Below, one piece after another: positions 57,502 through 64,000 of a stretch of DNA of 64,000 nt. Numbering within the stretch: the stretch's first letter is position 1; each line of letters starts with the position of its first letter. The DNA is from Marmoricola sp. URHB0036 (GTDB lineage: Bacteria; Actinomycetota; Actinomycetes; Propionibacteriales; Nocardioidaceae), in NCBI RefSeq assembly GCF_000426045.1, contig NZ_AUEP01000011.1, forward strand, positions 124,001-188,000, written 5' to 3'. Under the pieces are notes generated by a model. It did not search any database. It saw only the letters and a program-made list of their open reading frames with translations, and had not been told where the DNA came from. Position numbers and translations under genes: made by a program.

Positions 57502-58632
57502 TCAGGCGGGCTGGCTGAGCATCTGGGCCATCCGGCCCATCAACGCGGGTACGTCGCCCTGCTCGCCGTCGAGCAGCCACTGGCCGAGCTGGTTGGAGGC
57601 CTCGACCACGGAGCGGGCCCGGTCGTAGCGGCGCTCGATGAGCTCCTCCCACAGCTGGTCGGTCACGTGCTCGTGGCTCAGCAGCAGCTCACTGAGGACC
57701 GCGGCGTCCTCCAGGGCCTGCGCCGCACCCTGGGCGAGCGTGGGCGGGCAGGCGTGTACTGCGTCGCCGATGAGCACGATGCGACCGCGGTTCCACGGGG
57801 CCTCGAGGACGTGGGTCTCGAACCACGTGTAGTTGACGCGCTCCGGGTCGACCAGGGACTCGCGGATGTCGTCCCAGGGTCCGTGGTAGCTCGCCGCCAG
57901 ATCCCTCATCACGTCCAGGGACTCCTGGGGCGAGAGGCCGGAGCGGTCCTGGGCCGTTTCCACGAGGTAGGCGTAGAGCGTGTCCTCGCCGGTGGGGCAG
58001 TAGCCGGCGATGTAGCAACGACCGCCGTAGACGAGGTCGGTCCGGGTGACGCTCGCGGGCCGTGGGGCGAAGACCCGCCAGATGCCCATCCCGGTGCTGC
58101 GCGTCTCCAGCTCGATGCCGAGCTGCTGACGGGTGGCCGAGTGGACGCCGTCAGCGCCGATGACGAGGTCGTAGCGGGCCGAGGTGCCGTCCTCGAAGCT
58201 GGCGGTGACACCGTCGTCGTCCTGGGCGAAGCCGGTGCACGACGTACCGAAGCGGACCTTGGCGCCCACGTCTGCGGCTCGCGTCACGAGGATGCGCGCC
58301 AGCTCTGGTCGGTACATCCCGACGGTGGCCGGCAAGTCGGGTCCACCCGTCCTGGCATCGGGGATCTCGGCCACCAGGGTGCCGGCCGGGTCCGGGGCGC
58401 GCAGACCGAGGCTGTCGAAGGAGTACCCGGCGGCCTCGACCTCGGGCCAGACTCCCAGCTGGCGGAACACGCGAAGTGCGTTGCCCTGGAGCGTGATGCC
58501 CGAACCGACCGCACCGACATCCGGCTTGACGTCGATCAGGTCCACCGAGACGCCCGCCTCGGCGAGCAGGATCGCGGCGGCTGTGCCGGCGGCCCCCGCA
58601 CCTACGACAAGGACGGATTGAACTGATGGCAT
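57502..58632 (-). CDS. FAD-dependent aromatic monooxygenase (salicylate/3-hydroxybenzoate hydroxylase-like)
   Basis: 376 residues. FAD loop GAGAAGTAAAILLAEAG at ~11-27, the DG motif with IGADGVHSATRQ, and the GDAVHACPPTLAQGAAQALEDA motif are the three signatures of class A flavin hydroxylases. It would hydroxylate an aromatic ring using NAD(P)H and O2. Ribosome site AAGGAG. It is divergent from the deglycosidase operon across 214 bp, so it could process the aglycone released there. Confidence 0.9.
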   Translation of the reverse strand: MPSVQSVLVVGAGAAGTAAAILLAEAGVSVDLIDVKPDVGAVGSGITLQGNALRVFRQLGVWPEVEAAGYSFDSLGLRAPDPAGTLVAEIPDARTGGPDLPATVGMYRPELARILVTRAADVGAKVRFGTSCTGFAQDDDGVTASFEDGTSARYDLVIGADGVHSATRQQLGIELETRSTGMGIWRVFAPRPASVTRTDLVYGGRCYIAGYCPTGEDTLYAYLVETAQDRSGLSPQESLDVMRDLAASYHGPWDDIRESLVDPERVNYTWFETHVLEAPWNRGRIVLIGDAVHACPPTLAQGAAQALEDAAVLSELLLSHEHVTDQLWEELIERRYDRARSVVEASNQLGQWLLDGEQGDVPALMGRMAQMLSQPA

Positions 58633-58846: not shown

Positions 58847-59239
58847 ATGATCTCCGACCGTCTGATCGAGCCAGACTCGCTCGTCATCGAGGGGCGTCGC
58901 GCAGCAGTCGACGTACGCATCCCCTGGTACCGAGCCATCCCGGCTTCCTGCATCGCCGACGTGGTCCTGCGCATCGACGGCGCTACGGCGAGCGCCGACT
59001 CGGTGCTCTGCAAGCTCAACGGCACCGAGCGCAGTCTGGAGGAGTTCCCGACCATGACCGACGAGTCGTGGTTCACCACAGACGCCCTGACGGTCTCGGG
59101 TGACTTCGACCTCCCGGACGCAGGGGAGCACGACGTGTTCGTCGAGCTGAAGGTCTACATCCCCTACATCGTCACCGCCCACGGCGTCCTCATGATCGAC
59201 GAGGCCTCCGAGGCCAGGATGGCAGGAGCCAGCCAGTGA
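58847..59239 (+). CDS. C-glycoside deglycosidase beta subunit (CGDB/DUF6379-like)
   Basis: 130 residues, a compact all-beta protein: LIEPDSLVIEGRRAAVDVRIPWYRAIPASCIADVVLRIDG, then SWFTTDALTVSG, and ending VELKVYIPYIVTAHGVLMI. This pattern is that of the small subunit of C-glycoside deglycosidases (CarC, DfgB, DgpB-type), which with a TIM-barrel alpha subunit splits the sugar-aromatic C-C bond of 3-oxo-C-glycosides. The overlap with the next gene (GTGA), an alpha-subunit-like protein, is strong support. Assigned from memory of the family, without a search. Confidence 0.75.
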   Translation: MISDRLIEPDSLVIEGRRAAVDVRIPWYRAIPASCIADVVLRIDGATASADSVLCKLNGTERSLEEFPTMTDESWFTTDALTVSGDFDLPDAGEHDVFVELKVYIPYIVTAHGVLMIDEASEARMAGASQ

Positions 59240-60360
59240 CCGAGCTGATCAGCGGTGCCGCCACCCCCGGCCACCCGATCCAGGGGGTGACCCTCTACAG
59301 CTTCACCCGGGCCTTCCACGGTCGTCGCTACGACCTCGAAGGTCTGATCCGCAAGGTCGCGGCCGACGGTCTGGGCCCGGGTCTGGAGATCATCGGATTC
59401 TCCAGCTTCCGCGGGTTCCCTGATCTCGACGACGAGTTCGTCGACTGGTTCCGCGCCCTGGTCGAGGAGACCGGACTCGTGCTCACCTCGTGCGCTGTGA
59501 ACACCGACGTCGGCATCCGCCGCGACCGGCTGCTCACCGACGACGAGCTGATCGCCTACATGGAGCGCCAGATCACCACGGCCGCCCGCCTCGGATTCCC
59601 CCTCGCCCGCGTGCAGATCTCGCTCTCGCCGGACGCGATGGAGCGGCTGCTGCCGTTGGCCGAGCGTCTCGACATCGTGCTGGCCATCGAGATCCATGCC
59701 CACCACCACCCGCACCACCCGCAGGTGGTCTCTCTTCGGGAGCGCTACGAGACGCTCGGCTCGCCACTGCTCGGCTTCGTCGCCGACTGGGGTACGACGA
59801 CGTCCGGGCTGGCGCCCTCGATGGTGGAGGCCTACCGGCGTCGCGGAGCGTCTGCCGAGCTGCTCGAGGCGGCCGACCAGCTGTGGAAGCAGTACTACGC
59901 CGAGGGCCCGCCGCCGACCGAGCCCGCGCACGGCGAACGATTCGGTGCGTTCATCGGACTCGCCGCGCAGCACGGGTCCCCGGAGCTGGGCATCGACCTG
60001 GCCATCAACGCGACCGGACTCTTCGGGCCGGCACCGGTCGAGTCGTGGCTGGAGATCCTGCCCTGGGTGCGCCACGTGCACGGCAAGTTCTTCGGCATCG
60101 ACGAGCGGGGCGAGGAGCCCTCAGTGCCGGTGCGCGCGCTGGTCGCGCAGCTCGTCGAGGAGGGGTACGACGGAGCCATCTCGAGCGAGTACGAGGGCTG
60201 GCACTGGAACTACTGGGACGACGCCTTCGACATCGTGACGGCCGAGCAGGCCGTGCAGCGGGATGCAGCGGTCAACGCCGGGTCGGCCATGGTCCTCGAT
60301 GCCGACCAAGCGCGTGAGCAGCTTCGAGCCCACCTCGCCTCACTGCGTGTGCCCGGCTGA
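59236..60360 (+). CDS. C-glycoside deglycosidase alpha subunit (TIM barrel, metal-dependent)
   Basis: 374 residues, xylose isomerase-like sugar phosphate isomerase fold. Probable metal ligands are Glu152 and Asp184 (FVADWGTT), His280 or His282 (HVHGKF), and Glu318 (SEYEGWHW). His154 in EIHAHHH is placed as the catalytic base of known deglycosidases. N-terminus has VTLYSFTRAFHGRRYDLEGLIRKVAADG. Bound to the beta subunit it would cleave the C-glycosidic bond of a 3-keto substrate by a beta-elimination-type reaction. GTG start overlaps the beta gene by four bases. Confidence 0.78.
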   Translation: MTELISGAATPGHPIQGVTLYSFTRAFHGRRYDLEGLIRKVAADGLGPGLEIIGFSSFRGFPDLDDEFVDWFRALVEETGLVLTSCAVNTDVGIRRDRLLTDDELIAYMERQITTAARLGFPLARVQISLSPDAMERLLPLAERLDIVLAIEIHAHHHPHHPQVVSLRERYETLGSPLLGFVADWGTTTSGLAPSMVEAYRRRGASAELLEAADQLWKQYYAEGPPPTEPAHGERFGAFIGLAAQHGSPELGIDLAINATGLFGPAPVESWLEILPWVRHVHGKFFGIDERGEEPSVPVRALVAQLVEEGYDGAISSEYEGWHWNYWDDAFDIVTAEQAVQRDAAVNAGSAMVLDADQAREQLRAHLASLRVPG

Positions 60361-60381
60361 CCGACACGTATCGTCCTGAGC

Positions 60382-61014
60382 ATGTCCAGCAACCCGCTCG
60401 TCCGGGAGCCGCAACAGGAGCGGAGCAGAGTCTCCTTCGACCGCGCTGTCGACGCCGCCGTCGAGCTGCTGGCCGAGCGCGGCAGTGCATCGTTCACCGT
60501 GCTCGACGTCTCGAGGGCCTCGGGCGTCTCGACGGGCTCCATCTACGGGCGGGTGGCCAGCAAGGACGACCTGCTCCGGGTGGCGCACGCACGCGAGATG
60601 CAGCGGCTCACCATCGAGACAGCACAGGCCTTCGCGGCTGCGCCGACGGGCGGCCCGCTCGTCGAGGTCGTCGAGTTCTCGGTCCGGGCGATGGCCGACC
60701 TGCTGGACCGCAACGCGAAGGTGCTCAAGCCGTTCATGCGGCTGGCCGACCGCGACCAGGTCATCGCCTCGAACGGCCAGGACGCGTTCGAGGAGCTGAC
60801 GACGCGTTTCGAGGCCGCGCTGCGCAGCGCTGACGGCGTGCGCCGAGGGGCGAGGGGGCGGCGCGCGGCAGCATGGTCGTGCACGGTCGCCTACAGCGTC
60901 CTTGCTCGCCAGCTCGCGCTGGGCAGTGACCCCGGTGCGGCCGCCGACTACAGCCTCGGCAAGGTCATCAAGGAGCTCTCCGTGATGATCACCGCCTACA
61001 TGGCGAACGCGTGA
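60382..61014 (+). CDS. TetR-family transcriptional regulator
   Basis: 210 residues. N-terminal helix-turn-helix at ~17-65 (AVDAAVELLAERGSASFTVLDVSRASGVSTGSIYGRVASKDDLL), followed by an all-helical ligand domain. It lies inside the deglycosidase operon, 21 bp after the alpha subunit, and is a natural candidate for the local regulator, possibly responding to an aromatic glycoside or aglycone. The palindrome at 61056-61075 after it is a likely operator. Confidence 0.9.
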   Translation: MSSNPLVREPQQERSRVSFDRAVDAAVELLAERGSASFTVLDVSRASGVSTGSIYGRVASKDDLLRVAHAREMQRLTIETAQAFAAAPTGGPLVEVVEFSVRAMADLLDRNAKVLKPFMRLADRDQVIASNGQDAFEELTTRFEAALRSADGVRRGARGRRAAAWSCTVAYSVLARQLALGSDPGAAADYSLGKVIKELSVMITAYMANA

Positions 61015-61055
61015 GCTGAGACGCGCATCACGTCGACCGATGGCGGTCATCGCGA

Positions 61056-61075
61056 ATCAGAACTGCCATTCTGAT
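61056..61075. promoter_or_regulatory. Probable TetR operator
   Basis: ATCAGAA (61056-61062), spacer CTGCCA, TTCTGAT (61069-61075): perfect 7-bp arms. It lies between the TetR stop and the start of the redoxin gene (24 bp from the ATG at 61099), where a repressor could block the downstream three-gene part. Confidence 0.6.
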
Positions 61076-61098
61076 CCGGTCACGAGCAGACTGACGCC

Positions 61099-61995
61099 AT
61101 GTCTGAACGCACCCGTCTCGGCGTCGGCGACGCCGCCCCGGTCATCGATCTCACCGACACCGACGGGCAGCGGGTGGGGGTCGACCCGGCAGTGAGCAAC
61201 GCGACCGTGCTCGTCTTCACCTCCAACGGGTGCCCCTACGCCCTGGCCTGGCACGACCGCATCCAGGACGTCGTCCGCGACTACGCCGAGCAGGGAGTCA
61301 GCGTCGTGCAGGTCATCTGCAACGACGACCAGCTGCAGCCGCTCGACTCCGCGGAGAACATGGACGCCCGGGTGCAGCGCGGTGAGGTCGCCGGCGTGTT
61401 CCTGCGCGACGGGGACCAGTCCACCACGCGACTGTTCGGTGCCACCGCGACACCGGAGACCTTCGTGATCGACCGGCAGGGCGTCGTCCGCTACCACGGC
61501 GCCCCGGACCGGGACTACGACGACCCCGGGCTGCGCGCCGAATGGCTGCGCGAGGGCATCGAGGCGGTCCTGGAGTCCCGCAACCCCGCCCAGGCGTCGA
61601 CCCCGCCGGCCGGATGCTCGGTGAAGTGGCGGGTGGAGCTGCTGTGGTGGGCCGGGTGTCCCAGCCACGACAGGGCCGAGGAGCTGATCCGCGAACAGCT
61701 GGCCGACATGCACCGTGAGGACGTGCGCGTAGAACGCATCGAGGTCACGTCTGCAGCCCAGGCTGCGGCGTACGACTTCCCGGGCTCGCCGACGATCCGC
61801 ATCGGTGGCACCGACCTCTTCCCGCAACCCGGAGCGACGCCTGCTCTGGCCTGCCGGGCCTACACCCGCGAGGACGGGCAGATCAGTCCGCTGCCGTCGC
61901 GAGCCGAGCTGGACGGTCGCATGCGGGAGGCGCTGGTCCGACCCTGGGAGCTGCCCAACTGGGTCGACTTCCGCAAGCAGGCTGCGACGAGCTGA
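61099..61995 (+). CDS. Redoxin fused to a second thioredoxin-fold domain
   Basis: 298 residues. Residues 1-155 form an AhpC/TSA/TlpA-like redoxin domain with TSNGCPYALAWHDRI: the first Cys is present, but the partner Cys of a CxxC is replaced. After a linker with PPAGCSV, residues ~172-290 form another thioredoxin fold with WWAGCPSHDRAEELI and DFPGSPTIRIGGTDLFP, like the alkylmercury-lyase-type C-terminal proteins. It may remove H2O2 made by the neighbouring oxidase, or serve as a redox partner. The fusion is unusual. Confidence 0.75.
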   Translation: MSERTRLGVGDAAPVIDLTDTDGQRVGVDPAVSNATVLVFTSNGCPYALAWHDRIQDVVRDYAEQGVSVVQVICNDDQLQPLDSAENMDARVQRGEVAGVFLRDGDQSTTRLFGATATPETFVIDRQGVVRYHGAPDRDYDDPGLRAEWLREGIEAVLESRNPAQASTPPAGCSVKWRVELLWWAGCPSHDRAEELIREQLADMHREDVRVERIEVTSAAQAAAYDFPGSPTIRIGGTDLFPQPGATPALACRAYTREDGQISPLPSRAELDGRMREALVRPWELPNWVDFRKQAATS

Positions 61996-63521
61996 TGTCC
62001 CGCGAGTTCCCCGCACAGGTCGACGTGGCGATCGTCGGCAGCGGTCCCACCGGAGCGACGTACGCGCGGATCCTCAGTGAGCTGCGCCCGGACCTCACCG
62101 TGGCCACCTTCGAGGTCGGCCCATTGGTGACCGACCCACCAGGTGCCCACGTCAAGAGCATCGTCGACCGGGACGCGCGCGCCGTCGCGCAGCACCTGTC
62201 CGAAGGGCCGGCCGATCCGGAGGACGACGGTCGCCTCAGGCGCGCCGGCACCTTCCTGCTGCCGAGCGGCTACCAGCTGGACGGCGAGGACGGCATCCCT
62301 TCGGTCGCCATGTCCAGCAACGTCGGCGGCATGGGTGCGCACTGGACCTGCGCCTGCCCTCGCCCGGGTGACAGCGAGCGGGTGCCCTTCCTGCCGGGCT
62401 TCGACGAACTGCTCGACGAGGCCGCTCGCCTGCTGGGAGTGTCCACCGACGCGTTCGACGACGCTCCCTTCGCCCACGAGGTACGCCGGCGGCTGGCCGC
62501 GGAGTTCGACGACGACCGTCCGGCCGAGCGCCGGGTGCAGTCGATGCCCCTGGCGGTGCGCGTGAGTCAGGACGGGACGGTCACGTGGTCGGGGTCCGAT
62601 GTCGTCTTCGGTGACGCCGCCCGCGACAACCCCCGCTTCACGCTGATCCCTGACGCACTCGTCCGGCGCGTGGTCATCGAGGGCGGCCGGACCACTGGCG
62701 TCGTCGTCGTCGACCGGACCGACCACTCCGAGCACGACGTCGCGGCATCGGAGGTCGTCGTGGCGGCCGACGCGCTGCGCACGCCCCAACTGCTGTGGGC
62801 ATCGGGCATCCGTCTGCCCGCCCTCGGGCGCCACCTGAACGACCAGAGCCAGCTCATCCACGCCGTACGTCTGCGAGACGTCGAGTCCACAGCGGAGAGC
62901 CAGGTCGACCCTCGAGGCCGCACGGCCGTGGTCCAGCAGAGCGGAGTGAGCTGGGTGCCGTACACCGACGCCGAGCCGTTCCACGGTCAGGTGATGCAGC
63001 TCGACGCCTCACCGGTCCCTCTCGCTCCGGGGGACGTGCCCGAACCCGGTTCCATCGTCGGGCTCGGCTGGTTCTGCGCCAAGGACATCAGCGCCGAGGA
63101 CCGCGTCACCTTCGACGACACCGCGACCGATGCCTACGGGATGCCGGCAATGCAGGTCCACTACACCCTCACCGACGTCGACCACGAGCTGCTCGAGGCC
63201 GCCCAGGCGTCCATCAAGCGCGCGGCGGCGGCACTCGGCGAGCCCCTCGACGCCGAGCCGAGGACGCTGGCCGGGGGAGCGTCGCTGCACTACCAGGGAA
63301 CGGTCCGGATGGGACCTGCGGACGACTCCACGAGCGTCTGCGACGTGTCCAGCCGGGTCTGGGGGGTCGACGGGCTACGCGTCGCCGGCAACGGCGTCAT
63401 CCCCACGCCCATGGCCTGCAACCCGACGCTCACGTCGGTCGCTCTCGCTGTCGCGGGAGCGCGGCACATCGCCGACACCCTGGCGACAGCACAGCGGACT
63501 CACGAGGAGGCACGAGGATGA
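61995..63521 (+). CDS. GMC-family FAD oxidoreductase, pyranose oxidase/C-glycoside 3-oxidase-like
   Basis: 508 residues. FAD loop VAIVGSGPTGATYARIL, the covalent-FAD-region-like VGGMGAHWTCAC, and the C-terminal active site with His432 (SLHYQGTVRMG) and Asn476 (GVIPTPMACNPTLTS) match pyranose 2-oxidases and the CarA-type C-glycoside 3-oxidases. It would oxidise C3 of a sugar moiety, the step required before deglycosylation. Start shares one base with the previous stop. Stop overlaps the Gfo gene by four bases. Oxidase or dehydrogenase mode cannot be told from sequence. Confidence 0.82.
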   Translation: MSREFPAQVDVAIVGSGPTGATYARILSELRPDLTVATFEVGPLVTDPPGAHVKSIVDRDARAVAQHLSEGPADPEDDGRLRRAGTFLLPSGYQLDGEDGIPSVAMSSNVGGMGAHWTCACPRPGDSERVPFLPGFDELLDEAARLLGVSTDAFDDAPFAHEVRRRLAAEFDDDRPAERRVQSMPLAVRVSQDGTVTWSGSDVVFGDAARDNPRFTLIPDALVRRVVIEGGRTTGVVVVDRTDHSEHDVAASEVVVAADALRTPQLLWASGIRLPALGRHLNDQSQLIHAVRLRDVESTAESQVDPRGRTAVVQQSGVSWVPYTDAEPFHGQVMQLDASPVPLAPGDVPEPGSIVGLGWFCAKDISAEDRVTFDDTATDAYGMPAMQVHYTLTDVDHELLEAAQASIKRAAAALGEPLDAEPRTLAGGASLHYQGTVRMGPADDSTSVCDVSSRVWGVDGLRVAGNGVIPTPMACNPTLTSVALAVAGARHIADTLATAQRTHEEARG

Positions 63522-64000
63522 CCGAGCTGCGGGTGGCCATGATCGGCCATGCGTTCATGGGAGCCGCGCACAGTCAGGCGTGGCGCACGGCACCACGGTT
63601 CTTCGACCTGCCGTCGACGCCCGTGCTGAGGGTGCTCTGCGGTCGCGACGCGGCCCGAGCGGCAGAAGCCGCCGAGCGACTGGGCTGGGAGCAGAGCTCG
63701 GACGACTGGCGCTCCGTCATCGCTCGCGACGACGTCGACGTGGTGGACATCTGCACACCGGGTGACAGCCACGGAGAGATCGCCGTCGCGGCCCTGGCAG
63801 CAGGCAAGCACGTCATCTGTGAGAAGCCGCTGGCCAACACGGTCGTCGAGGCCGAGCAGATGTCAGCGGCTGCCGAACAGGCGGCGGCTCACGGCGTACG
63901 GGCGATGGTCGGGTTCACCTACCGCCGCGTCCCAGCTGTCGCCCTGGCCCGTCAGCTGGTCGCGGAGGGCCGCATCGGCGAGGTCCGTCACGTCCGTGCC
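63518..64000 (+). CDS. Gfo/Idh/MocA-family oxidoreductase, 3' end outside window
   Basis: 161 codons are visible. The Rossmann loop is MIGHAFMGAAHSQAW, followed by DVDVVDICTPGDSHGEIAVAALAAGKHVICEKPLA, the sugar-oxidoreductase core with the EKP motif holding the conserved Lys. Members oxidise or reduce hydroxyl groups of sugars and cyclitols, often 3-keto sugars. It would suit handling of the keto-sugar left after C-glycoside cleavage. The ATG overlaps the GMC stop. Confidence 0.9.
   Translation, partial: MTELRVAMIGHAFMGAAHSQAWRTAPRFFDLPSTPVLRVLCGRDAARAAEAAERLGWEQSSDDWRSVIARDDVDVVDICTPGDSHGEIAVAALAAGKHVICEKPLANTVVEAEQMSAAAEQAAAHGVRAMVGFTYRRVPAVALARQLVAEGRIGEVRHVRA

Follow-up and report, generated by a model that had tools for sequence, protein, structure and literature searches.

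The left part of a probable aerobic C-glycoside catabolic locus in Marmoricola sp. URHB0036

Introduction

In C-glycosides, a carbon-carbon bond of great stability links a sugar to a phenolic compound. MtCarA, CarA with CarBC, and PurA with PurBC exemplify bacterial systems in which an oxidase of the GMC family works with a C-glycoside deglycosidase (CGD) pair (PMC8563793; PMC10807413; PMC12724307). The C-glycosides reported for these systems include carminic acid and puerarin, and a description of aglycone breakdown was not found in the accessible text of these reports. Published soil systems cover removal of the sugar, and the fate of the sugar fragment and of the aglycone was not found in the accessible parts of the C-glycoside literature. 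The gut genus Catenibacillus is reported to carry out C-deglycosylation and flavonoid degradation. A soil C-glycoside cluster joined to ring cleavage of the aglycone was not found in the literature searched. Here we analyze 64,000 nucleotides of Marmoricola sp. URHB0036 (contig NZ_AUEP01000011.1, positions 124,001 to 188,000; called the window below), whose right end had been predicted to encode a pathway of C-glycoside deglycosylation. Coordinates are in window numbering, and the cluster was traced past 64000 to the contig end, ≈22 kb beyond the window edge. Judged from its genes, this end of the window very probably forms the left part of a locus for aerobic C-glycoside catabolism, in which a probably imported core would provide for oxidation, cleavage, and salvage of the sugar, and neighboring genes for opening of the aglycone ring.

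Results

The window encodes a CGD beta/alpha pair

Homology, predicted folds, and catalytic residues all identify 58847-60360 as the genes of a CGD beta/alpha pair, in agreement with the original prediction. The product of the first gene, beta1 (58847..59239, + strand), matches the CGDB family (PF19906; E 3.2e-14) to which it had been assigned, scoring 53.2 bits where the cut-off is 27.6. As predicted, this gene overlaps the next, by 4 bases. The second gene, alpha1 (59236..60360, + strand), encodes a xylose-isomerase-like TIM barrel whose best phmmer match in the PDB is the alpha chain of AgCGD2 from Arthrobacter globiformis (7dnm_A, 1.5e-58; 36% identity), and CGD alpha chains or fused CGDs account for 8/8 of its PDB sequence matches at E<=0.01.

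AgCGD2 (7DNM/7DNN) resembles the window pair in its beta/alpha composition, its fold, and its seven catalytic residues, given in the available text of PMC8563793 as the metal-site and base residues E147, H149, D179, H269, K271, E305, and E307; they comprise the metal ligands Glu/Asp/His/Lys/Glu, the base His, and its partner Glu. The residue numbers of that text fit the AgCGD2 frame in locus L011 of A. globiformis NBRC 12137 (tested at 14 positions of alpha and 4 of beta), and the comparison gave 7/7 matches in alpha1, namely E152, H154, D184, H282, K284, E318, and E320. AgCGD2, according to the same text, accepted only C8-glycoside 2 among six compounds. A prediction of C6 or C8 preference for alpha1 from the AgCGD2 loops was rejected, as the alignment near Met249 is ambiguous. 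Clustered with the AgCGD2 gene itself are relatives of alpha1 (70%) and GMC1 (60%). In the same strain we noted two frames with seemingly fused CGD beta and alpha parts (L011:1-1110 and L011:1082-2623), the first broken off at the start of the locus; the fusion is as in the Microbacterium testaceum CGD 8qrz.

AlphaFold models, built for single chains only, reached pLDDT 90.6 and pTM 0.90 for alpha1 (14 sequences) and pLDDT 91.4 and pTM 0.85 for beta1 (13 sequences). In Foldseek searches, the first 16 matches of the alpha1 model were CGD chains, and 17/17 matches of the beta1 model at E<=0.001 were CGD beta or fused CGD chains. Four helices between residues 194 and 262 of the alpha1 model perhaps correspond to the published CGD lid domain.

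Alpha1 shares the AP_endonuc_2 fold, which would also suit an isomerase or epimerase of sugars or an inosose dehydratase, with a small neighbor by coincidence. Alpha1 has no NCBIfam match at E<=0.001, unlike other TIM barrels of the cluster, which do match hydroxypyruvate isomerase or inosose models of NCBIfam. In a tree of 28 hand-chosen TIM-barrel rows, for which the program warned of long branches, 16 CGD alpha rows and a further barrel of the locus (TIM_E) were set apart with branch support 100/99 from hydratase-like, Hyi-like, and IolE-like rows, and alpha1 grouped with AgCGD2 alpha. Neither a missing CGDB match nor a grouping of alpha1 with hydroxypyruvate isomerase or inosose enzymes was seen. 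We rejected an isomerase or inosose enzyme on the NCBIfam, PDB sequence, structure, and tree results, and together with the 7/7 catalytic residues they make such an identity of alpha1 barely credible.

GMC1 is a candidate C-glycoside 3-oxidase

The genes that had been predicted to follow the CGD pair in the same direction, for a TetR regulator, a redoxin, a GMC enzyme, and a Gfo/Idh/MocA enzyme, were found at or close to the expected places. GMC1 (61995..63521, + strand) has the predicted His432 and Asn476, and these align to H440 and N484 of PsG3Ox, of which the alanine variants were inactive (PMC10646112, available text). Its best PDB matches are MtCarA (7DVE, 1.8e-190) and then PsG3Ox (7QF8, 1.6e-187). 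The accessible part of PMC10807413 gives as the signature of clade IV oxidases an (G/A)AHW flavinylation motif, K55, R94, Q297, and a loop LDASPVPL(A/G)(D/E)DD; GMC1 has GAHW, K54, R83, Q286, and the LDASPVPLA part of the loop. This strong homology suggests that GMC1 is a clade IV C-glycoside 3-oxidase that keeps most of the signature. The second GMC protein, GMC2 (65891-67414), matches 7QF8 less closely (8.5e-119), and the LDASPVPL string is absent from it.

PsPOx, an extant member of clade IV, accepts homoorientin, isovitexin, mangiferin, and fraxin as substrates (PMC10807413, available text), and the clade of GMC1 points to C-glycosyl flavones or xanthones as substrate. For aloin-like compounds, originally proposed as candidates beside plant C-glycosyl flavonoids, we found nothing in favor. 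Fraxin is an O-glycoside, and the similar oxidase PurA oxidizes some O-glycosides, whose aglycone is then lost spontaneously (PMC12724307, available text), as would be expected if the natural substrates were mainly O-glycosides that undergo C3 oxidation and then elimination, with the CGD acting as a general 3-keto-glycoside lyase. However, the 3-keto O-glycosides made by PurA required no CGD, as far as that text goes, whereas the present locus keeps three CGD pairs, and a role mainly in O-glycoside breakdown appears improbable.

Candidate enzymes for salvage of the sugar

CGD and LgdB1 share a named product, 1,5-anhydro-D-erythro-hex-1-en-3-ulose (PMC8563793 and PMC7676230, available text), and preliminary evidence has the hydratase AtHYD and a Gfo reductase act downstream of it (PMC10628242, available text). 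TIM_A (64690-65700) matches AtHYD (8ro4) at 131 bits (5.3e-37) and is closer to 2zds (574 bits, 1.3e-171), for which no function is stated; it is a probable 2-hydroxy-3-keto-glucal hydratase. Gfo1, the Gfo/Idh/MocA oxidoreductase (63518..64693, + strand; the window ends at 64000), has the uncharacterized 4h3v as its best match (5.4e-186), followed by 6a3f (4.8e-94), which we take to be levoglucosan dehydrogenase. On the levoglucosan dehydrogenase model NF052479, Gfo1 scores 396.7 bits, short of the equivalog cut-off of 650, and it was not assigned as that enzyme. More likely, Gfo1 reduces 3-keto-glucose rather than oxidizing the substrate. Given the closer 2zds match and the NF052479 score below cut-off, both the hydratase and the reductase role are inferences.

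The C-glycoside core is conserved in other actinobacteria

Alpha1 had 102 confirmed relatives in one scan of named genomes. The best 80 (62-71% identity) were kept, and most of these come from genomes labelled as Microbacterium, Arthrobacter, or allied genera. Loci of up to 10 kb on each side were searched by tblastn, and the best match over 40% of the query at E<=1e-10 was scored, so that the counts are lower bounds where contig ends break off a locus. The arrangement exceeds chance: a beta gene stands directly upstream of the alpha1 relative in 80/80 loci, the seven catalytic residues are kept in 80/80 relatives, and 76/80 loci have a GMC1 relative no more than 3 kb away. By number of the 80 loci with a relative, beta1 (80), GMC1 (79), TIM_Hyi (76), Gfo1 and permease2 (72 each), the solute-binding protein (70), permease1 (69), TIM_A (67), SnoaL (53), and LysR (51) are followed by TIM_C and TIM_D (20 each), the aromatic hydroxylase FMO (12), the extradiol dioxygenase EDO (6, best 26%), the hydrolase FAH (3), the cyclase (2), TetR (1), and redoxin (0).

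Among the layouts listed, the gene of hydroxypyruvate-isomerase-like TIM_Hyi (68262-69065) is often just upstream of the oxidase gene. The SnoaL_4 protein (67411-68265) has a 54% relative beside CGD genes on the Novosphingobium plasmid pNL2 and perhaps carries out an additional pathway step. On the same plasmid, a GMC gene and two CGD pairs lie ≈7-12 kb from a catalase gene (L109:31333-33507), an arrangement that would suit a need for H2O2 removal; in the window, it is a redoxin gene that adjoins GMC1. Two contigs labelled Planococcus and Stenotrophomonas (L042, L048) carry alpha1 relatives that are 66-67% identical, like the actinobacterial ones, and are possibly mislabelled or contaminating.

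The core sits inside a ring-cleavage gene set

The FAD hydroxylase that had been predicted to diverge from the CGD genes is present, with a corrected start: its longest open reading frame (ORF) extends to 58776, and the family match begins at residue 49, making 58632 the likely start. FMO (57502..58632, - strand) is an aromatic hydroxylase with an FAD_binding_3 domain and scores 430 bits on PRK06847 (cut-off 372). At the far side of the locus lie the genes for EDO (82868-83806), FAH, an FAA hydrolase (83819-84790), and a PF04199 cyclase (84792-85808). EDO matches 3b59 at 1.9e-74, and its H144, H204, and E255 are placed, by eye, like the iron ligands of extradiol enzymes, whose ligand pattern underlies the assignment.

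EDO relatives (E<=1e-60) were found in 42/294 genomes of the family, and in 14/294 at identities of at least 80%; cyclase relatives at >=72% were found in the same 14/294 genomes. The window genome itself has one match each for FMO, EDO, and cyclase at the limits used. The ring-cleavage region was inspected in 9 of the 13 other genomes, and in 9/9 the order is LysR, divergent FMO, EDO, FAH, and the cyclase is no more than ≈4 kb away. FMO relatives of 52-76% identity occur in other genomes near FAH and cyclase genes, mostly with an EDO relative as well. Because FMO relatives belong to the ring-cleavage set in all nine inspected relatives of the family, hydroxylation of the aglycone gains indirect support. 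In three relatives checked by Pfam, an alpha/beta hydrolase gene is present between FAH and cyclase.

In the present locus, FMO flanks the CGD core on the left, in an orientation away from the core, and EDO-FAH-cyclase flanks it on the right; the CGD core sits inside a gene set that is contiguous in relatives. In G238, the other genome of the family with CGDB, the ring-cleavage set and the CGD genes are on different contigs. Outside the family, the Corynebacterium occultum plasmid pCOCCU (L112:7446-11659) has a 64% EDO relative beside genes for an aromatic hydroxylase, an FAH hydrolase, and a cupin, a neighborhood that recalls the isoflavone ifc set.

Origin of the core and parallel assemblies

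CGDB was found in 1/58 relatives, the window genome itself, and in 2/294 family genomes with the window genome included, and the alpha1 closest to that of the window in the tree belongs to Thermocatellispora tengchongensis (73%). From this distribution and relatedness the core was likely acquired from outside the family; because CGDB is so rare there (2/294), import is the probable explanation. Composition neither proves nor excludes acquisition. GC content is 0.688 in the core and 0.701 in window positions 1-57500, and tetranucleotide distances of the 4-kb blocks from 60 to 76 kb (0.158-0.168) fall within the flank range of 0.138-0.208. Values at the top of that range were obtained for the final three blocks (76-86.4 kb; 0.201-0.210), one of which is the highest of all 22 blocks.

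Contamination or a misjoin of the core was rejected, as the flanking FMO and EDO-FAH-cyclase genes have 60-86% relatives in the family and GC and tetranucleotide values are mostly ordinary. A circular plasmid was rejected as well: no terminal overlap of the contig was found, and the broken ABC gene at its end is not visibly resumed at its start. The upstream histidine kinase was considered as a marker of an empty site, and its best relative in the 23 other genus genomes was only 43% identical.

Two sphingomonad plasmids have CGD alpha and beta no farther than ≈11 kb from an EDO relative (42-43%), in stretches that also carry hydratase-like, Gfo, GMC, MFS, and FAH genes. These plasmids were chosen as present in both match lists (best 15 of 23 and 20 of 425) and do not give a rate. 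The stretch of Sphingobium sp. TomTYG65 also includes a 34% FMO relative and a gene annotated as cyclase, and in Croceicoccus marinus neither an FMO nor a cyclase relative was found within the plasmid stretch.

Is the ring-cleavage set part of the same pathway?

The oxidase and CGD could act as proposed while the hydroxylase and ring-cleavage genes serve an unrelated aromatic compound and are neighbors by chance. The EDO-cyclase set occurs without CGDB in 12/14 family genomes that hold it, and the separate contigs of G238 also speak for this explanation. Against it, FMO directly adjoins CGD beta with EDO-FAH-cyclase on the other side, which places the CGD genes inside the set; loci of Pseudoclavibacter (L058, L099) and Microbacterium (L062, L098) have FMO, FAH, and cyclase relatives near a C-glycoside core; and the two sphingomonad plasmids combine CGD with EDO and FAH genes. 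Moreover, the set is present in 2/2 CGDB genomes of the family versus 14/294 overall, a coincidence of ≈0.002 when calculated by hand as if the genomes were independent, which they are not. We consider chance neighborhood unlikely, with more to be said for it than for O-glycosides as the main substrates.

Several observations weigh against a single C-glycoside pathway with ring cleavage as its last part. Only 2/14 genomes with the EDO-cyclase set have CGDB, which implies that the set is not specific to C-glycosides; because it is not tied to them, the aglycone step rests on location. At identities of at least 50%, relatives of FMO, FAH, cyclase, and EDO were found in only 1, 1, 2, and 0 of the 80 alpha1 loci, respectively. 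The alpha/beta hydrolase of the set lies 173 kb off on the same contig here, as an intact 457-aa ORF. As for the sugar steps, the substrate loop of GMC1 continues with PGD where the consensus is (D/E)DD, and Gfo1, below the cut-off for levoglucosan dehydrogenase, could act in either direction.

Other genes of the locus

The TetR-family regulator (60382..61014, + strand; TetR_N 39.8 bits) and the redoxin (61099..61995, + strand; Redoxin 54.7 bits), which has a C-terminal DF (seleno)protein-like domain, are encoded between alpha1 and GMC1, and the final base of the redoxin gene is the first base of the GMC1 start codon. The redoxin scores 69.3 bits on NF049942, slightly below the cut-off of 70. 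It was rejected as a canonical peroxiredoxin, since the proline of the peroxiredoxin motif PxxxTxxC is absent (by eye), and peroxide removal by this protein is a guess.

Beyond TIM_A and GMC2, the gene of the NTF2-like SnoaL_4 protein, whose start position is provisional, is followed by three TIM barrels (68262-71034), of which one is hydroxypyruvate-isomerase-like and two are inosose-dehydratase-like, by LysR (71828-72760, - strand), and by a 359-aa ORF (72772-73851) directly before CGD beta2. This ORF has no Pfam match at E<=0.001 and has a relative in 2/80 alpha1 loci. CGD beta2 (73848-74246) and alpha2 (ending at 75253) precede an ABC solute-binding protein with two permeases (75418-78661), an MFS transporter (78681-80231, - strand), CGD alpha3 (ending at 81304; L006:2114-3304), CGD beta3 (81313-81696), and TIM_E (81704-82717). 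The ABC ATPase gene after 85808 is broken off by the contig end. The genome has three CGDB matches, every one at this locus.

In alpha3, Gln replaces the metal-ligand His269, as it does in 4 others among the 16 CGD alpha rows, from actinobacteria and sphingomonads. TIM_E, which adjoins beta3 and is CGD alpha-like, keeps the five metal ligands and has Gln at base His149 and Gly at Glu307; it perhaps catalyzes a different reaction.

Discussion

The originally proposed route of C3 oxidation and C-C cleavage is supported by the homology of GMC1, the homology of the CGD, and its full set of catalytic residues. In the pathway that we propose, GMC1 would use O2 to oxidize C3 of the C-linked glucose, with formation of H2O2. 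The metal-dependent alpha/beta CGD, with His154 as base, would then remove hydrogen from C2 of the 3-keto sugar and cleave the C-C bond; by strong homology and the complete catalytic residues, the expected products are the aglycone and 1,5-anhydro-D-erythro-hex-1-en-3-ulose (2-hydroxy-3-keto-glucal). Homology and conserved linkage suggest that TIM_A would hydrate the latter to 3-keto-glucose, which Gfo1 might, on weaker grounds, reduce to glucose. Finally, as gene order in relatives suggests, FMO would hydroxylate the aglycone, and EDO, FAH, and cyclase (82868-85808) would open its ring. The C-glycoside core, probably imported from outside the family, separates parts of a ring-cleavage set that stand together in relatives.

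More broadly, we tentatively propose that this one locus may combine uptake, C3 oxidation, cleavage by multiple CGDs, sugar hydration and reduction, and hydroxylation and meta-cleavage of the aglycone, which would amount to a nearly complete aerobic breakdown by a horizontally acquired core inside a lineage-native operon, with a separate, similar union on sphingomonad plasmids. If true, the locus would offer genes with which the entire route could be tested, including hydratase and reductase candidates, and three CGD pairs, possibly differing in specificity, in one strain; it would also be a case of a catabolic pathway built from an imported core and a native gene set.

Among described clusters, that of PsG3Ox in Pseudarthrobacter siccitolerans 4J27 (PMC10646112, available text; our locus L021) shares LysR, an ABC transporter, and TIM_Hyi with the present one, and its relatives of GMC1 (60%), beta1 (46%), alpha1 (70%), SnoaL (66%), Gfo1 (62%), and TIM_A (83%) show the same core. 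However, its gene order is unlike that of the Marmoricola locus, and within the 21 kb examined it has no relatives of TetR, redoxin, FMO, or EDO-FAH-cyclase. The MtCarA gene (L052) likewise neighbors an alpha1 relative of 67% identity. Alpha3 finds its best PDB match in the C-glucosyl deglycosidase of Deinococcus aerius (8QVC/8UMC; 2.5e-99), from which it differs by the Gln in place of one metal-ligand His.

The levoglucosan enzymes LgdA/B1/B2/C and GlycDH/AtOGE/AtHYD of A. tumefaciens follow the same logic of oxidation, elimination, hydration, and reduction, according to the available text of PMC7676230 and PMC10628242; TIM_A is related to AtHYD, and Gfo1 to the levoglucosan dehydrogenase model. 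The difference is that here a flavin oxidase and the CGD would do the first two steps. For the aglycone, the fde (Herbaspirillum) and ifc (Variovorax) A-ring pathways use an FAD hydroxylase and then a glyoxalase-type dioxygenase, a likeness drawn from their description only (PMC11069340, available text), and ifc has cupin IfcD proteins where the present locus has FAH and a PF04199 cyclase. The combination of an oxidase with a CGD is thus already known from CarABC and PurABC, and what is less familiar in the Marmoricola locus is its union with ring-cleavage genes, its three CGD pairs, and its candidate salvage enzymes.

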